A DNA stretch of 49,477 bases from a virus. Shown piece after piece: positions 33,283 to 48,826 of this stretch. The notes under the pieces are model-generated. The model ran no database searches, was not told the DNA's origin, and saw only the letters and a list, made by a program, of their open reading frames with translations. The stretch is from positions 1 to 49,477 of IMG/VR virus record IMGVR_UViG_3300021356_000032; one strand, given 5' to 3'. The number at the start of each line of letters is the position of its first letter. Position 1 is the stretch's first letter. Made by a program: the position numbers and the translations under genes.

Positions 33283-33518
33283 CCTTCCTGTTCCGCGTCC
33301 GCCGAGGAGGGGGAGTCAGACACAGGATCAGGAAGAAGCTTTATCGCTTCTTTTAAATCCACGTCCATACCGTGTTGCGCATGATTAACTAGACAAGCCA
33401 CAAGCTGAAGAGCCTGCTTGGTCTGTGCAACTGCATTGATTTTTTGCATGCATGTTTGGGACAGATCCCCAGCACGATATTTATTTCCATCAATTTCAAT
33501 TAAAGTATCTTCGTTCAT
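33279..33518 (-). CDS. Small conserved phage protein (DUF6447-like)
   Basis: A 79-residue protein with the order IDGNKYRAGDLS, a helix with QKINAVAQTKQALQLV, and LKEAIKLLPDP. This resembles a family of small phage proteins (DUF6447) of unknown function that begin with an IDG-x-x-Y strand pair followed by helices. It overlaps the upstream gene by 4 nt, so the two are probably translated together. Confidence 0.5.
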   Translation of the reverse strand: MNEDTLIEIDGNKYRAGDLSQTCMQKINAVAQTKQALQLVACLVNHAQHGMDVDLKEAIKLLPDPVSDSPSSADAEQEG

Positions 33519-33904
33519 CTTTTTTTCCTAGCATCATGTCTAATTACTTCATATTCCCTAGGGGCATCTACCGCTAACCTAGCCTGTGGAACATACTTTG
33601 ATTTAAAGTGGTCTCCTCGACCACAAACCTTGCAGTATTTTTCGGGCTTGAGGTGATACCGCTGAACCCCAACCATTTTTATTTCCACTCCATGATCAAC
33701 CATCATAGGTTCGTCAATATTTAATATTTCTTCTATAACCCCGTCCTGAGATTCAATATTAATTAACGCATCCTGATGATCATCTGTATCTCTTACCCTC
33801 CTCACCCAAATTCGGTGGTCGCATGACCCCTCTAAGTCCGAGGGGTCTAGGCTCCACCCGCCATAAAGTACCGTATCAACGGCACGGGTGATTCTTAGCG
33901 GCAT
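33515..33904 (-). CDS. CsrA-like protein with insertions
   Basis: A 129-residue protein. Residues 64-80 (DEPMMVDHGVEIKMVGV) and 107-125 (QARLAVDAPREYEVIRHDA) align by eye with the two halves of the RNA-binding regulator CsrA (E-x-x-x-I-G-D-x-I-x-I-x-x-L-G-V and Q-V-R-I-G-V-x-A-P). Between them is an insert of about 26 residues with a CKVCGRGDH knuckle-like motif (91-99). The N-terminus MPLRITRAVDTVLYGG also resembles the CsrA start. If real, it could bind mRNA leaders of phage or host. This is a pattern match, not a proven homology. Confidence 0.45.
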   Translation of the reverse strand: MPLRITRAVDTVLYGGWSLDPSDLEGSCDHRIWVRRVRDTDDHQDALINIESQDGVIEEILNIDEPMMVDHGVEIKMVGVQRYHLKPEKYCKVCGRGDHFKSKYVPQARLAVDAPREYEVIRHDARKKR

Positions 33905-42096: not shown

Positions 42097-42145
42097 GACG
42101 GCTCGGCACTATCCGTGTGCCTTTACCCTCCTCAGGTGAGCCGTC
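42097..42145 (-). ncRNA. Structured leader upstream of the zinc-ribbon gene
   Basis: On the minus strand GACGGCTC pairs with GAGCCGTC (8 bp), enclosing CCTGAGGAGG, the ribosome-site element of this operon, and an inner hairpin GGCAC/GTGCC. No start codon follows the element at normal distance, and no GAAA is present, so it is neither a usual ribosome site nor a hammerhead. It lies 38 nt before the start of the 59-residue gene. Possible regulatory or processing element. Confidence 0.5.
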
Positions 42146-42147
42146 AC

Positions 42148-42531
42148 CTATAAAATACTTCTCAGCTTCAACTCAGTAGGAATCGTTTGACGTACTGTCA
42201 ACGATGGGGCGTTAATTATGATTGATTTGCCTCTAGCCGTTCTGGCAAACATCAAATATGAAACAAGATTTGCGGATAATTCATGTGTGTCTGGGAAGCC
42301 GTGTAAGGCATCCTGACCGTCCCATGTGTGCACAATAATTTTTCCACCTGATGATTTGCTATTAATTTCAGCTTTTATTTTTTGCCTGTGTGCAAGAAAG
42401 TCAAACCCTTGATGCTCTTTGAGCATTTTGCGAAGAACGTTTTTTTGCTTCGAAGTTTTTGCCTTTCTCAACAAGGCGACTGCGACCAAATAGCGAGGGT
42501 CGTTTTCCTTGTAAGATTTTCTTCCAAACAT
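42148..42531 (-). CDS. Hypothetical basic protein
   Basis: A 127-residue Lys/Arg-rich protein (MFGRKSYKENDPRYLVAVAL). The first half is helical and basic (KAKTSKQKNVLRKMLKEH), which could bind nucleic acid. AAGG precedes the ATG. A TATAAT-like hexamer on the minus strand (42583-42588) could start extra transcription here, but I see no good -35. No family recognised. Confidence 0.5.
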   Translation of the reverse strand: MFGRKSYKENDPRYLVAVALLRKAKTSKQKNVLRKMLKEHQGFDFLAHRQKIKAEINSKSSGGKIIVHTWDGQDALHGFPDTHELSANLVSYLMFARTARGKSIIINAPSLTVRQTIPTELKLRSIL

Positions 42532-42604
42532 TTTTATACCTTGTCATTTATTATTGCTTTTGCATTATTTAAATTAACATAAATTATACTTTATTGCATT
42601 AATA

Positions 42605-43042
42605 CTAAAGTATTAGATGGCTGTTTTTTTCAGCAGTTTGGCAGGGAAATTTTTCTCTATAAAGGGCAGGAGCCTCTTCGTAAGAAAAGTATACATATTG
42701 ATATCCATTTCGTATAACAAAGCCAACAATTTTATTGTCTGGGTTCTCGGTCAATCTAAATTCATTTTGGTCTATCTCATAGACAGGTGCTCCTCCCGCG
42801 CTAATTGCAGTCCATTTGTCAGCGAGCACACAACCATTAACGGCACTATGAATTTCGCATAACTTAATTGCTTTATCTTCACGTTGGTTAACAATTCGCT
42901 CATAGGTAGCCTCGCTTCCGTATTGTTTAATACGATTTAAGGCAGAGACTTCATAGTCATAAGCGTGATAAAACAAAACGATGTTTTTACCGCTGATTCT
43001 TTTTACGTTTTTACTGCGTAAGAAAATTGCATTATTTGACAT
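42605..43042 (-). CDS. Hypothetical protein after ribozyme 1
   Basis: A 145-residue protein starting MSNNAIFLRSKNVKRI. The ATG at 43042 is fixed by the ribosome-site hairpin GAGGAGGTTT just upstream; a longer frame to 43273 would run through the ribozyme and is rejected. The C-terminal half (IVGFVIRNGYQYVYFSYEE) looks beta-rich. Unknown function. It follows hammerhead ribozyme 1, which should cut its mRNA 31 nt before the start. Confidence 0.6.
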   Translation of the reverse strand: MSNNAIFLRSKNVKRISGKNIVLFYHAYDYEVSALNRIKQYGSEATYERIVNQREDKAIKLCEIHSAVNGCVLADKWTAISAGGAPVYEIDQNEFRLTENPDNKIVGFVIRNGYQYVYFSYEEAPALYREKFPCQTAEKNSHLIL

Positions 43043-43044
43043 AT

Positions 43045-43060
43045 AAACCTCCTCAGGTTT
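43045..43060 (-). promoter_or_regulatory. Ribosome-site hairpin a
   Basis: AAACCT and AGGTTT form a 6-bp stem with loop GAGG. The Shine-Dalgarno GAGGAGG spans loop and 3' arm. Confidence 0.75.
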
Positions 43061-43069
43061 TTTAGTTAT

Positions 43070-43160
43070 CCAAGAGTCCAGTACACAAATGGTGAAAAAA
43101 AATTCTATTTGTGTACTTAGACTTTCGATCGAGGAACTACCTCGACAACTCATCAGTTGG
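43070..43160 (-). ncRNA. Hammerhead ribozyme 1 (type I, long stem III)
   Basis: On the minus strand CCAA-CTGATGA, stem II (TCGAGG/CCTCGA, loop TAGTT), GAAA, then an unusually long stem III (AGTC/GACT plus GTACACAAAT/ATTTGTGTAC) and CUC before TTGG. Stem I is CCAA/TTGG. Cutting is expected between 43074 and 43073. Loop II TAGTT pairs with AACTA downstream of stem I. The stop codon of the 62-residue gene lies in loop II. Confidence 0.88.
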
Positions 43161-43325
43161 AAAGATTTCAACCGCTTCAACCACTGTTTCGGTTGATCTG
43201 GTTTTCCCCGCCCATTTCGTATTGAGTGCTTCATAATACGAATCGATGGCTTCTTCTTGAGATTCAGCGCCAACGTGATACTCGTTGACGCATACTTCTC
43301 GCGTTATTACACGGTATGTAGGCAT
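43137..43325 (-). CDS. Hypothetical protein whose end encodes a ribozyme core
   Basis: A 62-residue protein (MPTYRVITREVCVNEYHVGA) with GGGAGG before the ATG. Its last codons, for PTDELSR and the TAG stop, are at the same time the stem I, CUGAUGAG core and stem II of hammerhead 1, so protein end and ribozyme constrain each other. If the ribozyme cuts, this mRNA stays intact upstream with a folded 3' end. The N-terminal beta pattern is common in small phage proteins. No known function. Confidence 0.6.
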   Translation of the reverse strand: MPTYRVITREVCVNEYHVGAESQEEAIDSYYEALNTKWAGKTRSTETVVEAVEIFPTDELSR

Positions 43326-43334
43326 TTTACCTCC

Positions 43335-43502
43335 CTAATATTGATCGCATTCGTCCTGAATGCCCAGTTTAAAACGATCAGCCCATTTCTGTTCGATCGC
43401 TTCTTTTCTTTCTTTTTCTCGCTCGTCTTCACGAGCGCGTTCAAGGTCGCTCATGTCCCAGTAGCGCTCCCACTGGGCGATATCTGCAAATGGGTTATCC
43501 AT
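43335..43502 (-). CDS. Small charged protein
   Basis: A 55-residue, very charged helical protein (MDNPFADIAQWERYW, then an Arg/Glu/Lys stretch). Its ATG overlaps the last codons of the upstream gene by 8 nt and has GGAGGA 6 nt before it, which strongly supports translation. Unknown function. Confidence 0.6.
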   Translation of the reverse strand: MDNPFADIAQWERYWDMSDLERAREDEREKERKEAIEQKWADRFKLGIQDECDQY

Positions 43503-43680
43503 TAAACTTCCTCCATAGTGTGTAGTACCTCAGGTCTTTATCAGGTAGCAGGTCAAGCAATTCGCGCAGTGCGTCCAATTCGCGCTCGTAGATGTCGTTT
43601 TCAGCAGTCTTGATTACCTTGCTGATCAGTAAAGCTCTGTCGAACTCGCGCACGGCGTCTGAAGGGGTGATCTTTTTCAT
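43495..43680 (-). CDS. Small helical protein
   Basis: A 61-residue protein (MKKITPSDAVREFDRALLIS) whose start overlaps the upstream stop as TAATG, so it is coupled to the 116-residue gene. Leu/Asp/Glu-rich helices (ERELDALRELLDLLPD). Unknown function. Confidence 0.6.
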   Translation of the reverse strand: MKKITPSDAVREFDRALLISKVIKTAENDIYERELDALRELLDLLPDKDLRYYTLWRKFNG

Positions 43681-44030
43681 TACGCCACCCCCTGCTTTTC
43701 TGTTAAGACCACCACATCACGCTCATCGCCGTACTCGACGGTGTCGCGAATCCATGTCCAGTTGAAGCAGTGGATGTAAGGTGAGTGTCGAGTCGCATCA
43801 ATGATATCTGTAGGGCATTGAACATAAGTGCGGACGCGACGAACATCAGACCAGACTTCATCGTCCCAGTCTTTTTCGACATCCTTAACAAGAAGATCAA
43901 ACTCCCAAGCGGTGAGAATGTGATCGACGTTGTCAGGCAGATCGTCCTCTGGAACGTACACGAGAAACCTATTGGTGTACTCGTAGTCGCCGTGGTTTAT
44001 TACGGTCTTGCATAGATGATATTTGTACAT
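43680..44030 (-). CDS. Acidic hypothetical protein after ribozyme 2
   Basis: A 116-residue acidic protein with many Asp, Tyr and Trp (DVEKDWDDEVWSDV). The start is set by ribosome-site hairpin b and lies 29 nt after the predicted cut of hammerhead 2. Acidity and early-operon context beside ArdC make a DNA-mimic or anti-defence role possible, but nothing specific is recognised. Confidence 0.6.
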   Translation of the reverse strand: MYKYHLCKTVINHGDYEYTNRFLVYVPEDDLPDNVDHILTAWEFDLLVKDVEKDWDDEVWSDVRRVRTYVQCPTDIIDATRHSPYIHCFNWTWIRDTVEYGDERDVVVLTEKQGVA

Positions 44031-44032
44031 AA

Positions 44033-44046
44033 ATCCTCCTCAGGAT
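44033..44046 (-). promoter_or_regulatory. Ribosome-site hairpin b
   Basis: ATCCT and AGGAT form a 5-bp stem with loop GAGG, ahead of the 116-residue gene. Confidence 0.75.
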
Positions 44047-44054
44047 ATTGGTTA

Positions 44055-44113
44055 TCTAGGACGCACCCGAAGGTGCGTTTCGACTGAGAACCACTCAGCA
44101 CTCATCAGCTAGA
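44055..44113 (-). ncRNA. Hammerhead ribozyme 2 (type I)
   Basis: Minus strand: stem I TCTAG/CTAGA, CTGATGA, stem II CTGAG/CTCAG with loop TGGTT, GAAA, stem III ACGCACC/GGTGCGT closed by a TTCG tetraloop, then GUC. Cut expected between 44060 and 44059. Loop II TGGTT is fully complementary to AACCA just after stem I. The stop codon of the 79-residue gene is the TAG of stem I. Confidence 0.93.
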
Positions 44114-44348
44114 AAAACAGACCACCGATTTGTTTCGGTATGTCATGTCTGGTCACGGGCTTCAGCTTCCCACCCTGTGACTCGTAGGTTTTGTAGCGCC
44201 ACTTCTCAGTGAAGTCTCTGCGGTTCTTGAATACCGCATACACCTGACCGTCCGCCGTATGCTTGGCATCACCCAATCGCTTTACCACTCTTGCGATTGG
44301 CGCTACTGACCCATCAACTGGGTCTATCGTGCTAATGTAATAAGCCAT
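44109..44348 (-). CDS. Hypothetical protein
   Basis: A 79-residue protein starting MAYYISTIDPVDGSVAPIAR, with beta-rich first half and basic C-terminal part. The ATG at 44348 follows ribosome-site hairpin c; a longer frame upstream is rejected because it would overlap two genes. The TAG stop is part of stem I of hammerhead 2. Unknown function. Confidence 0.6.
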   Translation of the reverse strand: MAYYISTIDPVDGSVAPIARVVKRLGDAKHTADGQVYAVFKNRRDFTEKWRYKTYESQGGKLKPVTRHDIPKQIGGLFF

Positions 44349-44353
44349 ATTGC

Positions 44354-44365
44354 ACCTCCTCAGGT
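44354..44365 (-). promoter_or_regulatory. Ribosome-site hairpin c with embedded stop codon
   Basis: ACCT and AGGT form a 4-bp stem with loop GAGG. The TGA stop of the upstream gene lies inside the element (CCTGAGG), coupling termination to initiation. No ribozyme is present here. Confidence 0.65.
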
Positions 44366-44575
44366 TCTGTAAGGCTTGATGTATTCGCCGACTGTTAAGT
44401 CGGAAGATTCGATATCGGCAACCAGTGCCTCCCACTCCTGAATGTCCCAGTCCGACTTGCCCTGAGTGACAATCTCAAGCAGGGCGTCGTGTAGGTCGTC
44501 AGGTTTTTGGAGGACGTACTTCACCTTGCGGTGGAGCATAGTTTTGATATCAAAGGGGGGCGTAGGTAATTTCAT
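44360..44575 (-). CDS. Hypothetical protein
   Basis: A 71-residue acidic protein (MKLPTPPFDIKTMLHRK). The ATG at 44575 has AGGGGG 10 nt upstream; an ATG at 44602 is possible but has no ribosome site. It overlaps the upstream gene by 26 nt. Helical with many Asp/Glu. Unknown function. Confidence 0.5.
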   Translation of the reverse strand: MKLPTPPFDIKTMLHRKVKYVLQKPDDLHDALLEIVTQGKSDWDIQEWEALVADIESSDLTVGEYIKPYRT

Positions 44576-44837
44576 CGATACTATGCCCCCTGAACAGATC
44601 ATGGATTTTTCGCAAGGCTGATCTTCTTTTGTCCCTAATCAGCTTTCCGTCTTTTGTGACATATATCCCGTGTGCTTTGCCGTCGCTACGATCAAGATAA
44701 CCCTTGTACACGAGATAGGAAATACCATCTCGTACGTTTGGATATCTGAAATCAGATAGTTTGCTCAAGCTTACATAGTGGATTAGCCCGTGCTTACTGG
44801 GCACTCTGTCACCATTGATTTTAGTAATAAAATACAT
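44550..44837 (-). CDS. Basic protein, possible winged helix, after ribozyme 3
   Basis: A 95-residue basic protein (MYFITKINGDRVPSKHG). The segment RDGISYLVYKGYLDR followed by GIYVTKDGK has the helix-then-wing rhythm of a winged-helix DNA-binding domain. The start is 29 nt after the predicted cut of hammerhead 3 and is preceded by ribosome-site hairpin d. Function otherwise unknown. Confidence 0.6.
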   Translation of the reverse strand: MYFITKINGDRVPSKHGLIHYVSLSKLSDFRYPNVRDGISYLVYKGYLDRSDGKAHGIYVTKDGKLIRDKRRSALRKIHDLFRGHSIDEITYAPL

Positions 44838-44838
44838 A

Positions 44839-44856
44839 AAAACCTCCTCAGGTTTT
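44839..44856 (-). promoter_or_regulatory. Ribosome-site hairpin d
   Basis: AAAACCT and AGGTTTT form a 7-bp stem, the longest of the set, with loop GAGG. Confidence 0.8.
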
Positions 44857-44861
44857 GGTTA

Positions 44862-44919
44862 TCCAAGACACCCTCGAAAGGGTGTTTCGTCCAGTTACCA
44901 TCTGGACTCGTCAGTTGGA
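44862..44919 (-). ncRNA. Hammerhead ribozyme 3 (type I)
   Basis: Minus strand: stem I TCCAA/TTGGA, CTGACGA, stem II GTCCAG/CTGGAC with loop ATGGTAA, GAAA, stem III ACACCC/GGGTGT with loop TTTCGA, then GUC. Cut expected between 44867 and 44866. Loop II TGGT pairs with ACCA after stem I. After cutting, TTGG could refold with CCAA of the new 5' end. Confidence 0.94.
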
Positions 44920-44920
44920 A

Positions 44921-45463
44921 TCAATGAGGGAGTTGATATCTCTCATCGTTTGCATCAGCCCAACCATCCTGAAGGTTTTCACGCTGATCTTGGACGAAGT
45001 CTTCAGTCTGTTCAGCGGTTAACAATTCAGAATGGATCAAGCCTGACGCTAGGCGTGGCTGAACGTAGTGTTCAAACTCATGCTGTGTGTCAGTGACGCA
45101 CTGGTTGTGCCCTCGGATGTAGACCTCATCAGGGTACATTTGGACAATCTCCCAGTTGCTGGGTAGTAGGTTGTCTACTTTTACGCCGAAACCGCTTACC
45201 TTTGTGGGGTTGGGGCAGACTGCGTACACGCACTCACCGTCAAGGTCGCGATCAGCATCAAGGGTCTCAGTGGATTGGTTGATTACCTTGTTCAGGTACT
45301 CTTCCAGAATCACCAGTTCCCGACGTGTGCTACTGGATACGCCAGAGCCATGTAGGTCAGCTATCAGCTCTTCGACACGACCCGACAAGCGCCAAGCCAG
45401 TTCATTGCACTCTTTGAGTAGAGCGACAGCATCGCCATCAAGGCGGAATTTGGAATTGCTCAT
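44921..45463 (-). CDS. Hypothetical protein after ribozyme 4
   Basis: A 180-residue acidic protein (MSNSKFRLDGDAVALLKECN). The first 75 residues are helical; the middle has VYAVCPNPTKVSGFGVKVDNL and the C-terminus is Gln/Asp-rich. The start follows ribosome-site hairpin e and lies 32 nt after the predicted cut of hammerhead 4. Not recognised. Confidence 0.6.
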   Translation of the reverse strand: MSNSKFRLDGDAVALLKECNELAWRLSGRVEELIADLHGSGVSSSTRRELVILEEYLNKVINQSTETLDADRDLDGECVYAVCPNPTKVSGFGVKVDNLLPSNWEIVQMYPDEVYIRGHNQCVTDTQHEFEHYVQPRLASGLIHSELLTAEQTEDFVQDQRENLQDGWADANDERYQLPH

Positions 45464-45467
45464 GATT

Positions 45468-45481
45468 AACCTCCTCAGGTT
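45468..45481 (-). promoter_or_regulatory. Ribosome-site hairpin e
   Basis: AACCT and AGGTT form a 5-bp stem with loop GAGG, ahead of the 180-residue gene. Confidence 0.75.
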
Positions 45482-45490
45482 TTATAGTTT

Positions 45491-45547
45491 TCCAAGACAC
45501 CCGCAAGGGGTGTTTCGACCAGTAACTATCTGGTCTCGTCAGTTGGA
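45491..45547 (-). ncRNA. Hammerhead ribozyme 4 (type I)
   Basis: Minus strand: stem I TCCAA/TTGGA, CTGACGA, stem II GACCAG/CTGGTC with loop ATAGTTA, GAAA, stem III ACACCC/GGGTGT with loop CTTGC, then GUC. Cut expected between 45496 and 45495. Loop II ATAGTT pairs over 6 bp with AACTAT downstream. Confidence 0.94.
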
Positions 45548-45548
45548 G

Positions 45549-45788
45549 TTAGTACAGGTCAGTGCTGTGAGCCCAGTCCACCATTCTCTTTGCGAGATGT
45601 TTACTGGTATCCCAAACAGCCTCAGTAATTTCATCCTCTTCTGGGTTGCCGTTGAGAACGCCTGCCACGACGTACTCTAGGTTTACGCAGTGGTCGTCTA
45701 GCCACACATCGGCTCGATTCTCCTCGGCGTCTATCGTTACAGTGAATTGACCAAACTCTTCGTAATCTTCATAAATGTCGAAATCCAT
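45549..45788 (-). CDS. Very acidic small protein after ribozyme 5
   Basis: A 79-residue protein (MDFDIYEDYEEFGQFTVTID) in which Asp and Glu far outnumber Lys and Arg. Strands in the first half and helices in the second, together with strong negative charge, would suit a DNA mimic such as antirestriction proteins, but this is inference from charge and from ArdC in the same operon. The start lies 33 nt after the predicted cut of hammerhead 5. Confidence 0.6.
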   Translation of the reverse strand: MDFDIYEDYEEFGQFTVTIDAEENRADVWLDDHCVNLEYVVAGVLNGNPEEDEITEAVWDTSKHLAKRMVDWAHSTDLY

Positions 45789-45794
45789 AGTTAG

Positions 45795-45806
45795 CCCTCC
45801 TCAGGG
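45795..45806 (-). promoter_or_regulatory. Ribosome-site hairpin f
   Basis: CCCT and AGGG form a 4-bp stem with loop GAGG, a C-G compensated version of the other copies. Confidence 0.7.
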
Positions 45807-45815
45807 TAAGTAGTT

Positions 45816-45873
45816 TTCCAAGACGCCCCGAGGGGCGTTTCGACCAGTAACTAACTGGGCTCATCAGTTGGAA
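45816..45873 (-). ncRNA. Hammerhead ribozyme 5 (type I)
   Basis: Minus strand: stem I TTCCAA/TTGGAA, CTGATGA, stem II GCCCAG/CTGGTC with one C-U mismatch and loop TTAGTTA, GAAA, stem III ACGCCC/GGGCGT with loop CTCG, then GUC. Cut expected between 45822 and 45821. Loop II TAGTT pairs with AACTA downstream. Confidence 0.92.
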
Positions 45874-45884
45874 TTAGTAAAAAG

Positions 45885-46292
45885 TTAGTACCCGTAGTAC
45901 TCAGCGTTGCGATCGCGGAACGAAGGCTCAAACTCACTAGCTGTAGCCTCAGTGATCAAGTCGCAGTAAGTGAGTCCCTCACGACCTGCGTACAGGCGCT
46001 TGAGGTGTAGCTCGTAGGCAGTAGCGTGGGCGGGTATCTTGCTCAACCATCGGCGCTCGCAGTTGTCGCAGTCTCTTGAGAAATTCTCGATATAGACAAA
46101 GCCGTCAGAGGTTTTGTAGTAGTCGAGGTTGCTTTTGAGTTCAGCGCGAGAGGCTAGGGTGTCGCGATACTGTAGGCGCCTCGCATCCTGACGCAGTCTT
46201 GCTTTGCGCGTGGGATTGATTACGGGCTGTGCCAATAAGTCCCAAGTCAGGGACAGTACAGGGTGTATGTTTTGCTGTTGCAATGTAGCCAT
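45885..46292 (-). CDS. Hypothetical protein after ribozyme 6
   Basis: A 135-residue protein (MATLQQQNIHPVLSLTWDLL) with a basic N-terminal helix region (TRKARLRQDARRLQYR) and a CDNC pair. The ATG follows ribosome-site hairpin g and lies 30 nt after the predicted cut of hammerhead 6. No family recognised. Confidence 0.6.
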   Translation of the reverse strand: MATLQQQNIHPVLSLTWDLLAQPVINPTRKARLRQDARRLQYRDTLASRAELKSNLDYYKTSDGFVYIENFSRDCDNCERRWLSKIPAHATAYELHLKRLYAGREGLTYCDLITEATASEFEPSFRDRNAEYYGY

Positions 46293-46296
46293 GATG

Positions 46297-46312
46297 AATC
46301 CTCCTCAGGATT
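46297..46312 (-). promoter_or_regulatory. Ribosome-site hairpin g
   Basis: AATCCT and AGGATT form a 6-bp stem with loop GAGG. Confidence 0.78.
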
Positions 46313-46317
46313 GGTTA

Positions 46318-46376
46318 TCTAGGACACTGGCGAACCAGTGTTTCGACTGGGTACCACCCAGTACTCATCAGCTAGA
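46318..46376 (-). ncRNA. Hammerhead ribozyme 6 (type I)
   Basis: Minus strand: stem I TCTAG/CTAGA, CTGATGA, stem II ACTGGG/CCCAGT with loop TGGTA, GAAA, stem III ACACTGG/CCAGTGT with a TTCG tetraloop, then GUC. Cut expected between 46323 and 46322. Loop II TGGT pairs with ACCA after stem I. The stop TAG of the 51-residue gene lies in stem I. Confidence 0.94.
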
Positions 46377-46527
46377 GTCTTTCTTTTATAGCTTCAAAAA
46401 GCCAATCCCTGTGCTCGTAGTAACGATCGTACAGAGACAGTTCGCTGTCAGGGTTTTCTTCTACTTCTTCAAGCGACCACTCAAGAAGTGTTTTTTTGAT
46501 TTTTTCGATTAACTCGTCTTCACACAT
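46372..46527 (-). CDS. Small acidic protein
   Basis: A 51-residue helical acidic protein (MCEDELIEKIKKTLLEWSLE). The ATG follows ribosome-site hairpin h. It is the first gene after the internal terminator. Its TAG stop forms part of hammerhead 6. Unknown function. Confidence 0.6.
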   Translation of the reverse strand: MCEDELIEKIKKTLLEWSLEEVEENPDSELSLYDRYYEHRDWLFEAIKERL

Positions 46528-46529
46528 GA

Positions 46530-46545
46530 TTACCTCCTCAGGTAA
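46530..46545 (-). promoter_or_regulatory. Ribosome-site hairpin h
   Basis: TTACCT and AGGTAA form a 6-bp stem with loop GAGG. It follows a terminator rather than a ribozyme. Confidence 0.78.
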
Positions 46546-46581
46546 AAAAATTTCAGGGGGCGGGAAAATCCCACACCCCCC
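46544..46581 (-). terminator. Terminator after ardC, inside the array
   Basis: On the minus strand a G/C stem (GGGGG/CCCCC then GGGA/TCCC) is followed within 5 nt by seven T residues. It should stop part of the transcripts after ardC and so reduce expression of the genes beyond. The hairpin sits where a ribozyme would be expected by the pattern of the other units. Confidence 0.7.
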
Positions 46582-46584
46582 AAC

Positions 46585-47463
46585 TTAAGCGACCTTGCTA
46601 ACAGCTAGTAGAGAGCCGTTATCATCAAGATAGTTAACAGCCTTGGATGCTTGAGCAGATGCCTTAACGATATGTTTAGGATCTGACTTCAACGCCTTGA
46701 GCCATCCTGCAATGTACTTCTCATGCTGTAAGCCTTCATATGGAATGCCAAGTAGAGCGCCTGCAAATGCAGACCCCAACTCAGCAACCAATTCTTCAAA
46801 GGCGTAGTCTTCACCGCCTTTACTGTTCAGTATCTTGCGGTTAAGTCGGTCTTTATGACCAGTCCAATGGATCAACTCGTGAGCCAGTGTGGCGTCGTGA
46901 TCCTCAGCAGTTTTAAATGCGTCAGCAGACGGCATGCGGACTTGGTCAAGTGATGGAATAAAGCAAGCAGTGTCTCCGCCGTAATGGAGATCAACGTTCA
47001 GGCTCTCAGCCAGTACATTGACAGCACCTGTACCAGATACTGGAGGGGTGTATTCCTTATAAGGTTTTGAGCCCTCTTCCCACTCAATCTGGTTAACATT
47101 CCAGACTGAAAAGCACTTATTGATAAAGCCAACCTTTTCGTCACCAGTTTGCTTATCTTTATAAACACTGCGAGCCATGAACCACACGTACTCACAGCCA
47201 CCGTTTGGGGCGCTTTTACTGGGAACCTTACCGCCAAGCTCTGTTGCCTGCTTGTAAGTAATCCAACCAGTAGCACCCCACTTTTTAGACGCCCAAGAAA
47301 GGTTAAGAAAGTTAACCCCACTGTAAGGTCTGCCAGTGGATGCGTTATGTGGTACTGAACCGTCGAACAATGATTTCCAAGGTTTACGCCAGTCTTCAGC
47401 ATTTTCCAAGCCATCAATGATTCGATCGGTAACTTCTTGAAATATATCTTCAAATTTAGCCAT
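46585..47463 (-). CDS. ardC: Antirestriction protein ArdC
   Basis: A 292-residue protein. The N-terminal half (FQEVTDRIIDGLENAEDWRKPW, GRPYSGVNFLNLSW, WFMARSVYK) is the ssDNA-binding domain of ArdC. The C-terminal half is a zinc metallopeptidase with His195-Glu196, His199 (AHELIHWTGH) and a likely Glu ligand in YAFEELVAELG. ArdC proteins protect incoming DNA against host restriction. Here it is in the first part of a strong early operon, as expected for a gene needed at entry. The start lies 38 nt after the predicted cut of hammerhead 7. Confidence 0.9.
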   Translation of the reverse strand: MAKFEDIFQEVTDRIIDGLENAEDWRKPWKSLFDGSVPHNASTGRPYSGVNFLNLSWASKKWGATGWITYKQATELGGKVPSKSAPNGGCEYVWFMARSVYKDKQTGDEKVGFINKCFSVWNVNQIEWEEGSKPYKEYTPPVSGTGAVNVLAESLNVDLHYGGDTACFIPSLDQVRMPSADAFKTAEDHDATLAHELIHWTGHKDRLNRKILNSKGGEDYAFEELVAELGSAFAGALLGIPYEGLQHEKYIAGWLKALKSDPKHIVKASAQASKAVNYLDDNGSLLAVSKVA

Positions 47464-47469
47464 GTTGTT

Positions 47470-47483
47470 ATCCTCCTCAGGAT
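47470..47483 (-). promoter_or_regulatory. Ribosome-site hairpin i
   Basis: ATCCT and AGGAT form a 5-bp stem with loop GAGG, ahead of ardC. Confidence 0.75.
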
Positions 47484-47496
47484 TAAGTAAATGGGT

Positions 47497-47552
47497 CTCA
47501 CGACACCCCGCAGGGTGTTTCGACTAGCCCCCGCCAGTCATCATCAGGTGAG
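47497..47552 (-). ncRNA. Hammerhead ribozyme 7 (type I, variant core)
   Basis: Minus strand: stem I CTCAC/GTGAG, different in sequence from all other copies but still paired, CTGATGA plus one extra T, stem II GACTGGC/GCTAGTC with loop GGGG, GAAA, stem III ACACCC/GGGTGT with loop TGCG, then GUC. Cut expected between 47502 and 47501. Loop GGG can pair with CCC downstream. The extra T may slow it. Confidence 0.85.
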
Positions 47553-47568
47553 TTTGTGCAACCCCAAC

Positions 47569-47799
47569 TCAGGGTTTTGTGAGCCGAAGGTTAGACTCAC
47601 TCGTGTAGTAGCGCTTAATTAAGTCAATCGCACGCTGTAAGTGATATTGAGCATCTTCCGAATCCCAGATTGGGTACTCGTCGTCAAATTGATCCTCTGC
47701 CCATTCGAGCCGCAAATCGTCGACATGCTCTTCTAGTTTGCTGTGCAGTGCATCAATCTCATCTGCTAGTGCAAACGCTCGCTGTTGTTGAATAGTCAT
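47569..47799 (-). CDS. Small acidic helical protein
   Basis: A 76-residue protein (MTIQQQRAFALADEIDALHS), acidic with helices and a coiled-coil tendency. GGGAG precedes the ATG inside the end of the upstream gene, 2 nt from its stop. Unknown function; early operon context. Confidence 0.6.
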   Translation of the reverse strand: MTIQQQRAFALADEIDALHSKLEEHVDDLRLEWAEDQFDDEYPIWDSEDAQYHLQRAIDLIKRYYTSESNLRLTKP

Positions 47800-47801
47800 G
47801 A

Positions 47802-47975
47802 TCAGATCTCCCGTGGCTTTACAATGAATTGATAACCAAGGCGCTTGGCTAGCGCGATAGTTTCATTGGTCAGTGTTTTGGTGCCTGCTATCTGAGCGAA
47901 TGTCTCGCCTGCTAGGCATAGCGGATAGATCTTCTCTTGACCGTAAACAGATTTAACTTCTACTTGTATTTCCAT
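47802..47975 (-). CDS. Small conserved protein, first gene of the array
   Basis: A 57-residue protein (MEIQVEVKSVYGQEKIYPLC) ending LAKRLGYQFIVKPREI. The AGTKTLT segment and this layout occur in small proteins of plasmids and phages with unknown function. It follows ribosome-site hairpin j and is the first gene after the structured leader RNA. Confidence 0.6.
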   Translation of the reverse strand: MEIQVEVKSVYGQEKIYPLCLAGETFAQIAGTKTLTNETIALAKRLGYQFIVKPREI

Positions 47976-47982
47976 GTTGTGC

Positions 47983-47992
47983 CCTCCTCAGG
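47983..47992 (-). promoter_or_regulatory. Ribosome-site element j (short stem)
   Basis: CCT and AGG with loop GAGG; only 3 bp, the weakest of the set. It ends the structured leader. Confidence 0.55.
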
Positions 47993-47995
47993 ACT

Positions 47996-48356
47996 GAATT
48001 GATTTTGTAGAACCACCAGAGGCGGTGGCTCTATCAAATCAACTCGACTGGGCTGTACTCGCCGAAGCTTTCCTAGGTAGGTTGCCCACCCAGTCGGTAG
48101 TTTGATTGCGTTCCGTGCAGGAGGCTTGCTACTCGCTCAGACCGTGGTCTGGCTTTCACTATCTCCAACCATGCACCTTTGAAGAGAGGCAGGGTCTCTG
48201 TCCCAACTCGCACCTTACTCTCGCCACCTGTACTCCCTGATCGGCAATTTCACACTGTGCTTTGAAGACCACTACTCGCCGAAGCTTTCGTGTTCACCCC
48301 GAAGGGTGGCAGGTCGTCTCGGAGACCTCGTAACCGAAGTGCCGTTTGAGCACTTG
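47996..48356 (-). ncRNA. Structured leader RNA with a duplicated domain
   Basis: About 360 nt without a plausible gene, unusually GC-rich, directly after a strong promoter. Visible stems in 5'-3' order: AAGTGC/GCACTT, CACCC/GGGTG with TTCG loop, CAGAC/GTCTG, GACTGGG/CCCAGTC enclosing GGTGGG/CCTACC, and TTGATTT/AAATCAA enclosing GAGCCACC/GGTGGTTC. GAAAGCTTCGGCGAGTA occurs twice, at 48274-48290 and 48056-48072, each time as the last part of a helix-enclosed domain. I match it to no known RNA class. Confidence 0.6.
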
Positions 48357-48362
48357 GAAACT

Positions 48363-48392
48363 AATATACAGGAGCAGAATTTAATCTGTCAA
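48363..48392 (-). promoter_or_regulatory. Strong leftward promoter of the ribozyme operon
   Basis: On the minus strand a consensus TTGACA (48387-48392) and TATATT (48363-48368) are 18 bp apart. Transcription would start near 48356, right at the first hairpin of the leader RNA. No repressor-type repeats are seen, which fits immediate early expression. Confidence 0.8.
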
Positions 48393-48420
48393 GAAATAAT
48401 TTAGTTTAGGGAGAAATATT

Positions 48421-48486: not shown

Positions 48487-48771
48487 ATGAGCGACGTTAC
48501 CTTGGATATAGATAAAAGATTCGACCGCCTCGAGGACAAATTAGATGAGGTAACCAAAACCCTGTCTGATTTAAAAGCTATTGAGGAGAGGCTAGTCAGC
48601 AGTCATAAACGCCTAGATCGTCATGAGTTACGCCTCGACCAGTTAGAAACCAATCAAAGAACCATAGAAAAAGACATTGCATCCAGTGAGTCAAAGTCAC
48701 GTATTGCAGAGCGCTTTGTCTGGTTGCTGATAACAGTAACGGCAACAATCATAGGAAAGAATTTTTTTTAG
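48487..48771 (+). CDS. Coiled-coil protein with C-terminal membrane anchor (XhlA-like)
   Basis: A 94-residue protein. Residues 5-70 form a heptad coiled coil (RFDRLEDKLDEVTKTL, RHELRLDQLETNQRTI). The last 20 residues (FVWLLITVTATIIGKNFF) are a membrane segment. This resembles the XhlA group found near lysis genes and small phage membrane proteins of unknown use. It could take part in lysis timing, or act at entry. Confidence 0.6.
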   Translation: MSDVTLDIDKRFDRLEDKLDEVTKTLSDLKAIEERLVSSHKRLDRHELRLDQLETNQRTIEKDIASSESKSRIAERFVWLLITVTATIIGKNFF

Positions 48772-48826
48772 GGCGGGAAAAAACCAAAACCCCCCACGCC
48801 CATATTCCCATAGGGAGAAGTAAGCA

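Follow-up and report, generated by a model that had tools for sequence, protein, structure and literature searches.

Type I hammerhead ribozymes coupled to Shine-Dalgarno hairpins separate the genes of a phage operon, with putative mRNA self-processing

Clusters of hammerhead ribozymes in prophages were described in 2011 by Perreault et al., who suggested that transcripts are processed into single-gene or operon-length mRNAs (PMC3088659). They comprise a triple array around ardA in Agrobacterium as well as clusters in Azorhizobium and Clostridium scindens; tandem arrays were active in vitro and the A. tumefaciens triple array was active in E. coli (PMC3088659). In the haloviruses HF1/HF2 a hammerhead variant is located before a helicase gene, and a mapped 5' end lies at most 3 nucleotides from the cut site (PMC3088659). 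The role of prokaryotic hammerheads was still called open in a review of 2017 (PMC6155905). Here we report seven hammerheads that lie within 4.5 kb, in a single orientation, and separate the genes of a phage operon. The analyzed DNA, referred to as the window, is the complete IMG/VR record IMGVR_UViG_3300021356_000032 of 49,477 bases, from a marine-type phage in which an integrase gene is present.

As in the prophage clusters, multiple hammerheads of the window flank single genes or short blocks of a phage operon, and an antirestriction gene stands beside a ribozyme in both (ardA there, an ArdC-like gene here). The arrays tested by Perreault et al. were about 2 kb each, that of Agrobacterium being triple, whereas seven ribozymes are found in the window and up to nine in its relatives. 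Unlike the known clusters, each ribozyme is joined to a covarying Shine-Dalgarno (SD) hairpin at a near-fixed distance, and hammerheads of types I and III interchange. In the open-licence literature we found no account of a covarying SD hairpin, of a type I/III interchange or of arrays with seven to nine members. The halovirus element is likewise located just upstream of an early gene, but it is a single variant element, belongs to a virus of archaea and lies 13 nt ahead of the start codon (PMC3088659). An earlier interpretation of this DNA from its letters alone (the sequence-only reading) had named no precedent for an operon-punctuating array. Its claim of novelty was too strong, since clustered prophage hammerheads with mRNA processing were already proposed in 2011 (PMC3088659), and the window array is a larger and more regular form of these. 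We put at roughly three in four the probability that the polycistronic phage mRNA would process itself co-transcriptionally into 5'-OH units with a standard leader.

No match to Rfam was obtained in the window at gathering score. For RF00163 (Hammerhead_1) this score is 34 bits, a value that is set by the database and is not demanded by structure or chemistry. Five of the seven elements matched once the threshold was relaxed (33.5, 29.3, 25.2, 20.6 and 20.6 bits; best E 1.7e-5), and two relatives exceeded the cut-off (36.7 bits). Relatives were therefore gathered from IMG/VR by a loose pattern (core, CGAAA and SD), which gave 59 stretches that were then parsed for structure. The covariance model R1 was built on an alignment (A2) of 25 diverse copies, none of them from the window. 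It found exactly seven elements (E 9.5e-18 to 9.1e-10), all at the C17/cleavage sites on the minus strand that had been named beforehand, and no further match on either strand of the 49,477 bases. The support from covariance models that the sequence-only reading had called for was provided in full by the independent R1 and in part, below the cut-off, by RF00163 (20.6-33.5 bits). The seven elements are:

47491-47553, minus strand: type I hammerhead HHR1, before the ArdC-like gene; predicted cut 47502/47501; R1 49.8 bits, E 3.9e-11; missed by Rfam
46311-46377, minus strand: type I hammerhead HHR2; predicted cut 46323/46322; R1 71.9 bits, E 4.3e-17; RF00163 20.6 bits
45810-45873, minus strand: type I hammerhead HHR3; predicted cut 45822/45821; R1 73.3 bits, E 1.9e-17; RF00163 25.2 bits
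45484-45548, minus strand: type I hammerhead HHR4; predicted cut 45496/45495; R1 74.3 bits, E 1e-17; RF00163 29.3 bits
44855-44920, minus strand: type I hammerhead HHR5; predicted cut 44867/44866; R1 74.4 bits, E 9.5e-18; RF00163 33.5 bits
44048-44114, minus strand: type I hammerhead HHR6; predicted cut 44060/44059; R1 73.2 bits, E 2e-17; RF00163 20.6 bits
43062-43162, minus strand: type I hammerhead HHR7, with a long stem III; predicted cut 43074/43073; R1 44.8 bits, E 9.1e-10; missed by Rfam

The core CUGANGA ... GAAA ... UH is present in all seven, with one inserted U in HHR1, and all seven R1 matches agree with a core flanked by three helices, of which stem I is the open one. The predicted cuts are located 38, 30, 33, 32, 29, 29 and 31 nt before the start codon (HHR1 to HHR7), in line with the 29-38 nt given earlier; in relatives this leader measures 28-52 nt. 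The type I fold, the common orientation, the short uniform leaders and the folded 3' end were also part of the sequence-only reading and are backed by the independent model, by covariation and by the relatives. Its term intergenic was not strictly accurate. At 46323 and 44060 the stop codon of the upstream gene shares bases with the 5' strand of stem I, and at 43074 it is within the ribozyme.

Across 60 viral loci R1 gave 104 matches, with nine in L018 and seven in L044, and in more than 30 IMG/VR loci the element stands before genes. When 40 shuffled windows were scanned under strict structural criteria, 0 matches were returned, and the same was true of R1 on 100 bacterial or archaeal loci that matched the loose pattern only. 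A chance origin of the seven elements is thereby excluded. At least 119 loose-pattern matches in bacterial and archaeal genomes were rejected as chance; those fetched failed the structural scan and 100 were without an R1 match. RF00163 had no match in eight cultured relatives (chosen by portal or ArdC protein), in a search that had no positive control and in which the first look nominated no candidates. Neither the 369 genomes searched from the class of G039 nor the 385 from that of G040 contained a prophage copy of the exact pattern, and R1 did not match in five bacterial genomes with 150 candidates scored per genome.

Pairing statistics were calculated for 69 non-redundant elements from 34 loci. 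Five stem I pairs were formed in 69 of the 69, with up to five pair types, against a shuffled maximum of 49-64. For the whole fold in A2, 90.2% of cells were paired (68.8% shuffled, at most 40% when slid by 1-3 columns) and the covariation score was 0.604 (0.198 shuffled, at most 0.123 slid), with two-sided changes in stems I, II and III. Additionally, loop II forms base pairs with the leader segment immediately following stem I (e.g. UAGUU/AACUA, UGGU/ACCA, GAUU/AAUC, AGAU/AUCU), a contact like those reported for other hammerheads (PMC3088659). This pseudoknot was paired in 85% of A2 cells with two-sided changes at all four pairs, and at least four Watson-Crick pairs were found in 54 of the 69 elements (shuffled mean 26.6, maximum 35). 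It is extremely improbable that the elements are relics without activity, or simple hairpins that resemble hammerheads by chance: altered cores in a few relatives (TTGACGA, CCGATGA) and the Rfam scores below cut-off would fit such an origin, but diverged copies show covariation, a conserved core and the pseudoknot, which speaks against it.

Several variants of the core were recorded. HHR1 carries its extra U between A9 and stem II, and a one-base insertion at this place also occurs in five other loci (L012, L029, L037, L040, L046); the orthologues of HHR1 in L004, L036 and L044 are intact. An extra core nucleotide is also known from the hammerhead of the viroid CChMVd (De la Pena and Flores 2001, as cited in PMC3705267 and PMC6155905). 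Because of the insertions in other loci and the viroid precedent, the extra U of HHR1 is probably tolerated. Eight elements in L003, L010, L014, L018 and L027 have the core CUGAAUGAG, with two nucleotides at N7 and otherwise intact stems. Two R1 matches of L032 (7832-7897 and 6646-6709, minus strand) show the cores UUGACAA and UUGAUAA; the change from C3-G8 to U3-A8 in the catalytic core would be compensatory. In L004, L005, L036, L044 and L018 a U-U replaces the first stem II pair, and UA instead of UC precedes the cut. Hammerheads with a stem III arm of about 75 nt were found at L017 2650-2776 and L035 10881-11007.

A covarying SD hairpin, overlooked by the sequence-only reading, is paired with each ribozyme. 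Nearly every SD is CCUGAGGAGG inside a small hairpin of the form CC-UGAGGA-GG with covarying arms. The motif CCTGAGGAGG occurs 11 times in the window, where 0.1 would be expected, always on the minus strand and between 42.1 and 48.0 kb; ten copies precede start codons, and the copy at 42127 is unlike an SD. The copies are located as follows:

47472-47481, minus strand: SD hairpin CCTGAGGAGG after HHR1, start codon 47463
46300-46309, minus strand: SD hairpin after HHR2, start codon 46292
45796-45805, minus strand: SD hairpin after HHR3, start codon 45788
45470-45479, minus strand: SD hairpin after HHR4, start codon 45463
44843-44852, minus strand: SD hairpin after HHR5, start codon 44837
44035-44044, minus strand: SD hairpin after HHR6, start codon 44030
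43048-43057, minus strand: SD hairpin after HHR7, start codon 43042
47983-47992, minus strand: SD hairpin motif without ribozyme before the first open reading frame (ORF; 47975-47802), from motif search
46533-46542, minus strand: SD hairpin motif without ribozyme before the ORF 46527-46372, from motif search
44355-44364, minus strand: SD hairpin motif without ribozyme before the ORF starting near 44348, from motif search

Orthologues of the first ORF do carry a ribozyme in L010, L017, L031, L033 and L053. The bases that flank the motif can pair with each other, and the third pair of the hairpin was formed in 69 of 71 ribozyme-bearing elements (30 expected, shuffled maximum 41) and at 57 of the 61 SD sites classed as ribozyme-less (25 expected, maximum 39). 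The hairpins are weak, with a mean of -5.6 kcal/mol in a short window. CTGAGGAGG came next after 93 of the 104 R1 matches, and downstream of at least 93 there was an SD, a start codon and an ORF on the same strand.

The structural unit is independent of the gene that follows. In total, 89 elements precede proteins of 35 sequence clusters; the ribozyme elements are, as judged from sequence, gene-agnostic. Orthologous arrays have genes in common, but units are gained, lost and exchanged: the unit order is 0,2,8,3,1,9,5 in the window, 0,2,3,1,4,5 in L036 and 14,15,2,1 in L046. In six loci (L017, L022, L028, L031, L053, L196) this position in front of the CCTGAGGAGG SD hairpin is taken by a type III hammerhead. 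Since type III replaces type I at a fixed place, self-cleavage itself seems to be what is kept, and this replacement of one topology by another is the strongest comparative sign of it. Comparison of the sequences establishes fold, covariation, placement and gene independence.

A role as linker for homologous recombination has been proposed for the promoter/stem-loop cassettes of T4-type phages. The stretch from ribozyme to SD could in the same way serve mainly the swapping of phage gene cassettes, with cleavage being secondary. The presence of the same element before 35 gene clusters and the turnover of units among related arrays would agree with this. However, a linker would have to be identical in sequence, whereas the stems diverge with pairing kept, a topologically different type III hammerhead occupies the same place, and the catalytic core is retained in most copies, so that we consider a linker role quite unlikely.

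In the proposed self-processing, which the comparative evidence supports well, each hammerhead would cut the polycistronic mRNA during its synthesis, immediately before a gene or a small block of genes. In the upstream product stems II and III would close the 3' end, which would bear a cyclic phosphate, and the downstream product would have a 5'-OH and a short leader whose weak hairpin carries the SD sequence. Before cleavage the first ~11 leader bases would be tied up in stem I and the loop II pseudoknot; afterwards they would be single-stranded beside the SD hairpin and could act as a ribosome standby site. The likely benefit would be that every gene has an mRNA of its own, whose 5' context and stability are standardised regardless of its neighbours, so that gene cassettes could be swapped. 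We infer the cleavage, the end chemistry and the effects on stability and translation. The early polycistronic mRNA of phage T7 is cut between genes by host RNase III, which gives units with folded 3' ends. T7 depends on this host enzyme, whereas the operon RNA studied here would cut itself.

Hammerhead ends are, by established chemistry, those joined by RtcB, and in the sequence two ribozymes flank each internal unit. Excised units (5'-OH and 2',3'-cyclic phosphate) could thus be joined by an RtcB-type ligase into circular mRNAs. This is very improbable, as Perreault et al. sought circular or spliced products and detected neither (PMC3088659), and no RNA ligase was seen among the window proteins scanned.

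The operon consists of about 15 small ORFs in a row on the minus strand, from 48.4 to 42.6 kb. With seven ribozymes for these ~15 ORFs, the predicted mRNA units would contain 1-4 genes. Among the families scanned only one of the ~15 ORFs had a recognisable family (ArdC-like), and the operon DNA had no match in cultured phages. The promoter, the leader region and the genes that follow the ribozymes are:

48363-48392, minus strand: sigma-70-type promoter TTGACA-18-TATATT, 11 of 12 consensus bases
48000-48360, minus strand: candidate structured leader RNA of the operon, about 350 nt, directly after the promoter, with repeated GAAAGC-n-GCGAGTA
46585-47463, minus strand: ArdC-like antirestriction protein gene (Pfam ArdcN and MPTase-PolyVal; phrog_7245)
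45885-46292, minus strand: ORF of 135 aa after HHR2, no family in scans
45549-45788, minus strand: ORF of 79 aa after HHR3, no family in scans
44921-45463, minus strand: ORF of 180 aa after HHR4, no family in scans and no cultured phage match
44550-44837, minus strand: ORF of 95 aa after HHR5, no family in scans
43680-44030, minus strand: ORF of 116 aa after HHR6, no family in scans
42605-43042, minus strand: ORF of 145 aa after HHR7, no family in scans

No second promoter-like site was found on the minus strand from 42500 to 48395 besides 48392-48363; this single consensus promoter and the gene content suggest that the operon may be early. The frequency of terminator-like sites in the operon was not above chance. 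Hairpin-like GGGG..TTTT..CCCGCCC stretches with T-/A-rich tails were seen after coding regions at 46545-46590 and 48770-48800 (both minus strand), and could be terminators or signals for processing.

The stop codons of upstream genes are concentrated around the ribozyme core, with peaks at -9, -8, -3 and +1. The ribozymes might act mainly to reduce expression, either by a cleavage that triggers decay of the upstream transcript or by making 3' ends instead of terminators. The cuts shortly after these stop codons and the lack of an excess of terminator-like sites would suit this. On the downstream side, however, the cut-to-start distance, the leader and the SD hairpin are tightly kept, and the upstream product retains strong GC-rich stems that usually protect 3' ends; we regard a mainly reducing function as unlikely. 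For self-processing into independent units some points are less favorable. Since the stop codons are often at most 10 nt from the core, ribosomes terminating upstream may cover it or delay its folding. Furthermore, HHR1 bears a core insertion, stem III of HHR7 is unusually long, and some operon genes are without a ribozyme.

The leader RNA is conserved in 7 related contigs (kept in L007, L012, L036 and L044, diverged in L014, L033 and L196) with moderate covariation, and it had no match to Rfam at gathering score. Its GAAAGC-n-GCGAGTA repeats are sarcin-ricin/loop E-like. Four of nine matches to GAAAGCTTCGGCGAGTA (L184-L187) were discarded as having no relation to it.

The window also encodes a portal/head-tail adaptor fragment, an internal virion protein, a tail fibre, an integrase, a Sak annealing protein, a YqaJ nuclease and a DnaB/Toprim protein. 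This gene content points to a podovirus-like phage with integrase. The closest cultured portals (Pelagibacter HTVC104P/HTVC033P and Roseobacter CRP-1) are 36-41% identical.

CsrA proteins bind GGA in SD hairpins; in CsrA/RsmA repression the GGA is shown in a hairpin overlapping the SD. The window encodes one protein with a weak similarity to CsrA:

33515-33904, minus strand: protein of 129 aa with weak CsrA similarity (PF02599, E 0.0014, below cut-off)

It scored 18.9 bits against PF02599 (cut-off 27) and 15 against TIGR00202 (cut-off 70.1), and the weak PF02599 match recurred in 7 of 9 homologues. Its C-terminus PQARLAVDAPREYEVIRHDARKK resembles the strand 4-5 region of CsrA and is preceded by a CxxC insert. 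An hhalign comparison to one CsrA sequence gave E 3.2e-4 and a probability of 39%. The structural model is all-beta with a C-terminal helix (pLDDT 85.7); a fold search of the PDB gave no significant match, with CsrA absent among the matches listed. Homologues occurred in 11 of 24 records searched, all 11 being array-bearing; the array records that gave no match are fragmentary, at 14-24 kb, and no homologue was found in two records free of R1 matches or in seven cultured relatives. Shared ancestry alone may account for the association. The gene adjoins the YqaJ and integrase genes in the window and in those relatives that were inspected.

Because of the binding mode of CsrA proteins, this protein is a speculative candidate for an SD-hairpin binder. 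The phage hairpin presents UGAGGA in a loop register that differs from the usual ANGGAN hexaloop of CsrA/RsmA, and both homology and binding are putative. It is doubtful, although conceivable, that the whole operon forms self-made insulated mRNAs on which the SD hairpin is a common operator, with a diverged phage CsrA-like protein switching all units together.

The synthetic insulator RiboJ, a ribozyme and hairpin before the ribosome binding site (RBS), raises mRNA and protein (PMC6206723). Its order of self-cleaving ribozyme, hairpin, RBS and gene, with a standardised mRNA 5' end, resembles that of the phage units (PMC6206723). RiboJ is derived from sTRSV and has a 23-nt hairpin upstream of the RBS, whereas the phage SD lies within the hairpin and the ribozymes stand between operon genes (PMC6206723). 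The present data narrow the role of phage hammerheads to a position that is tied to an SD hairpin, independent of the gene and fillable by type I or type III, and mRNA unitisation and insulation are therefore directly testable. The arrays would represent a natural multi-gene counterpart of ribozyme insulators such as RiboJ, with dozens of diverged parts.

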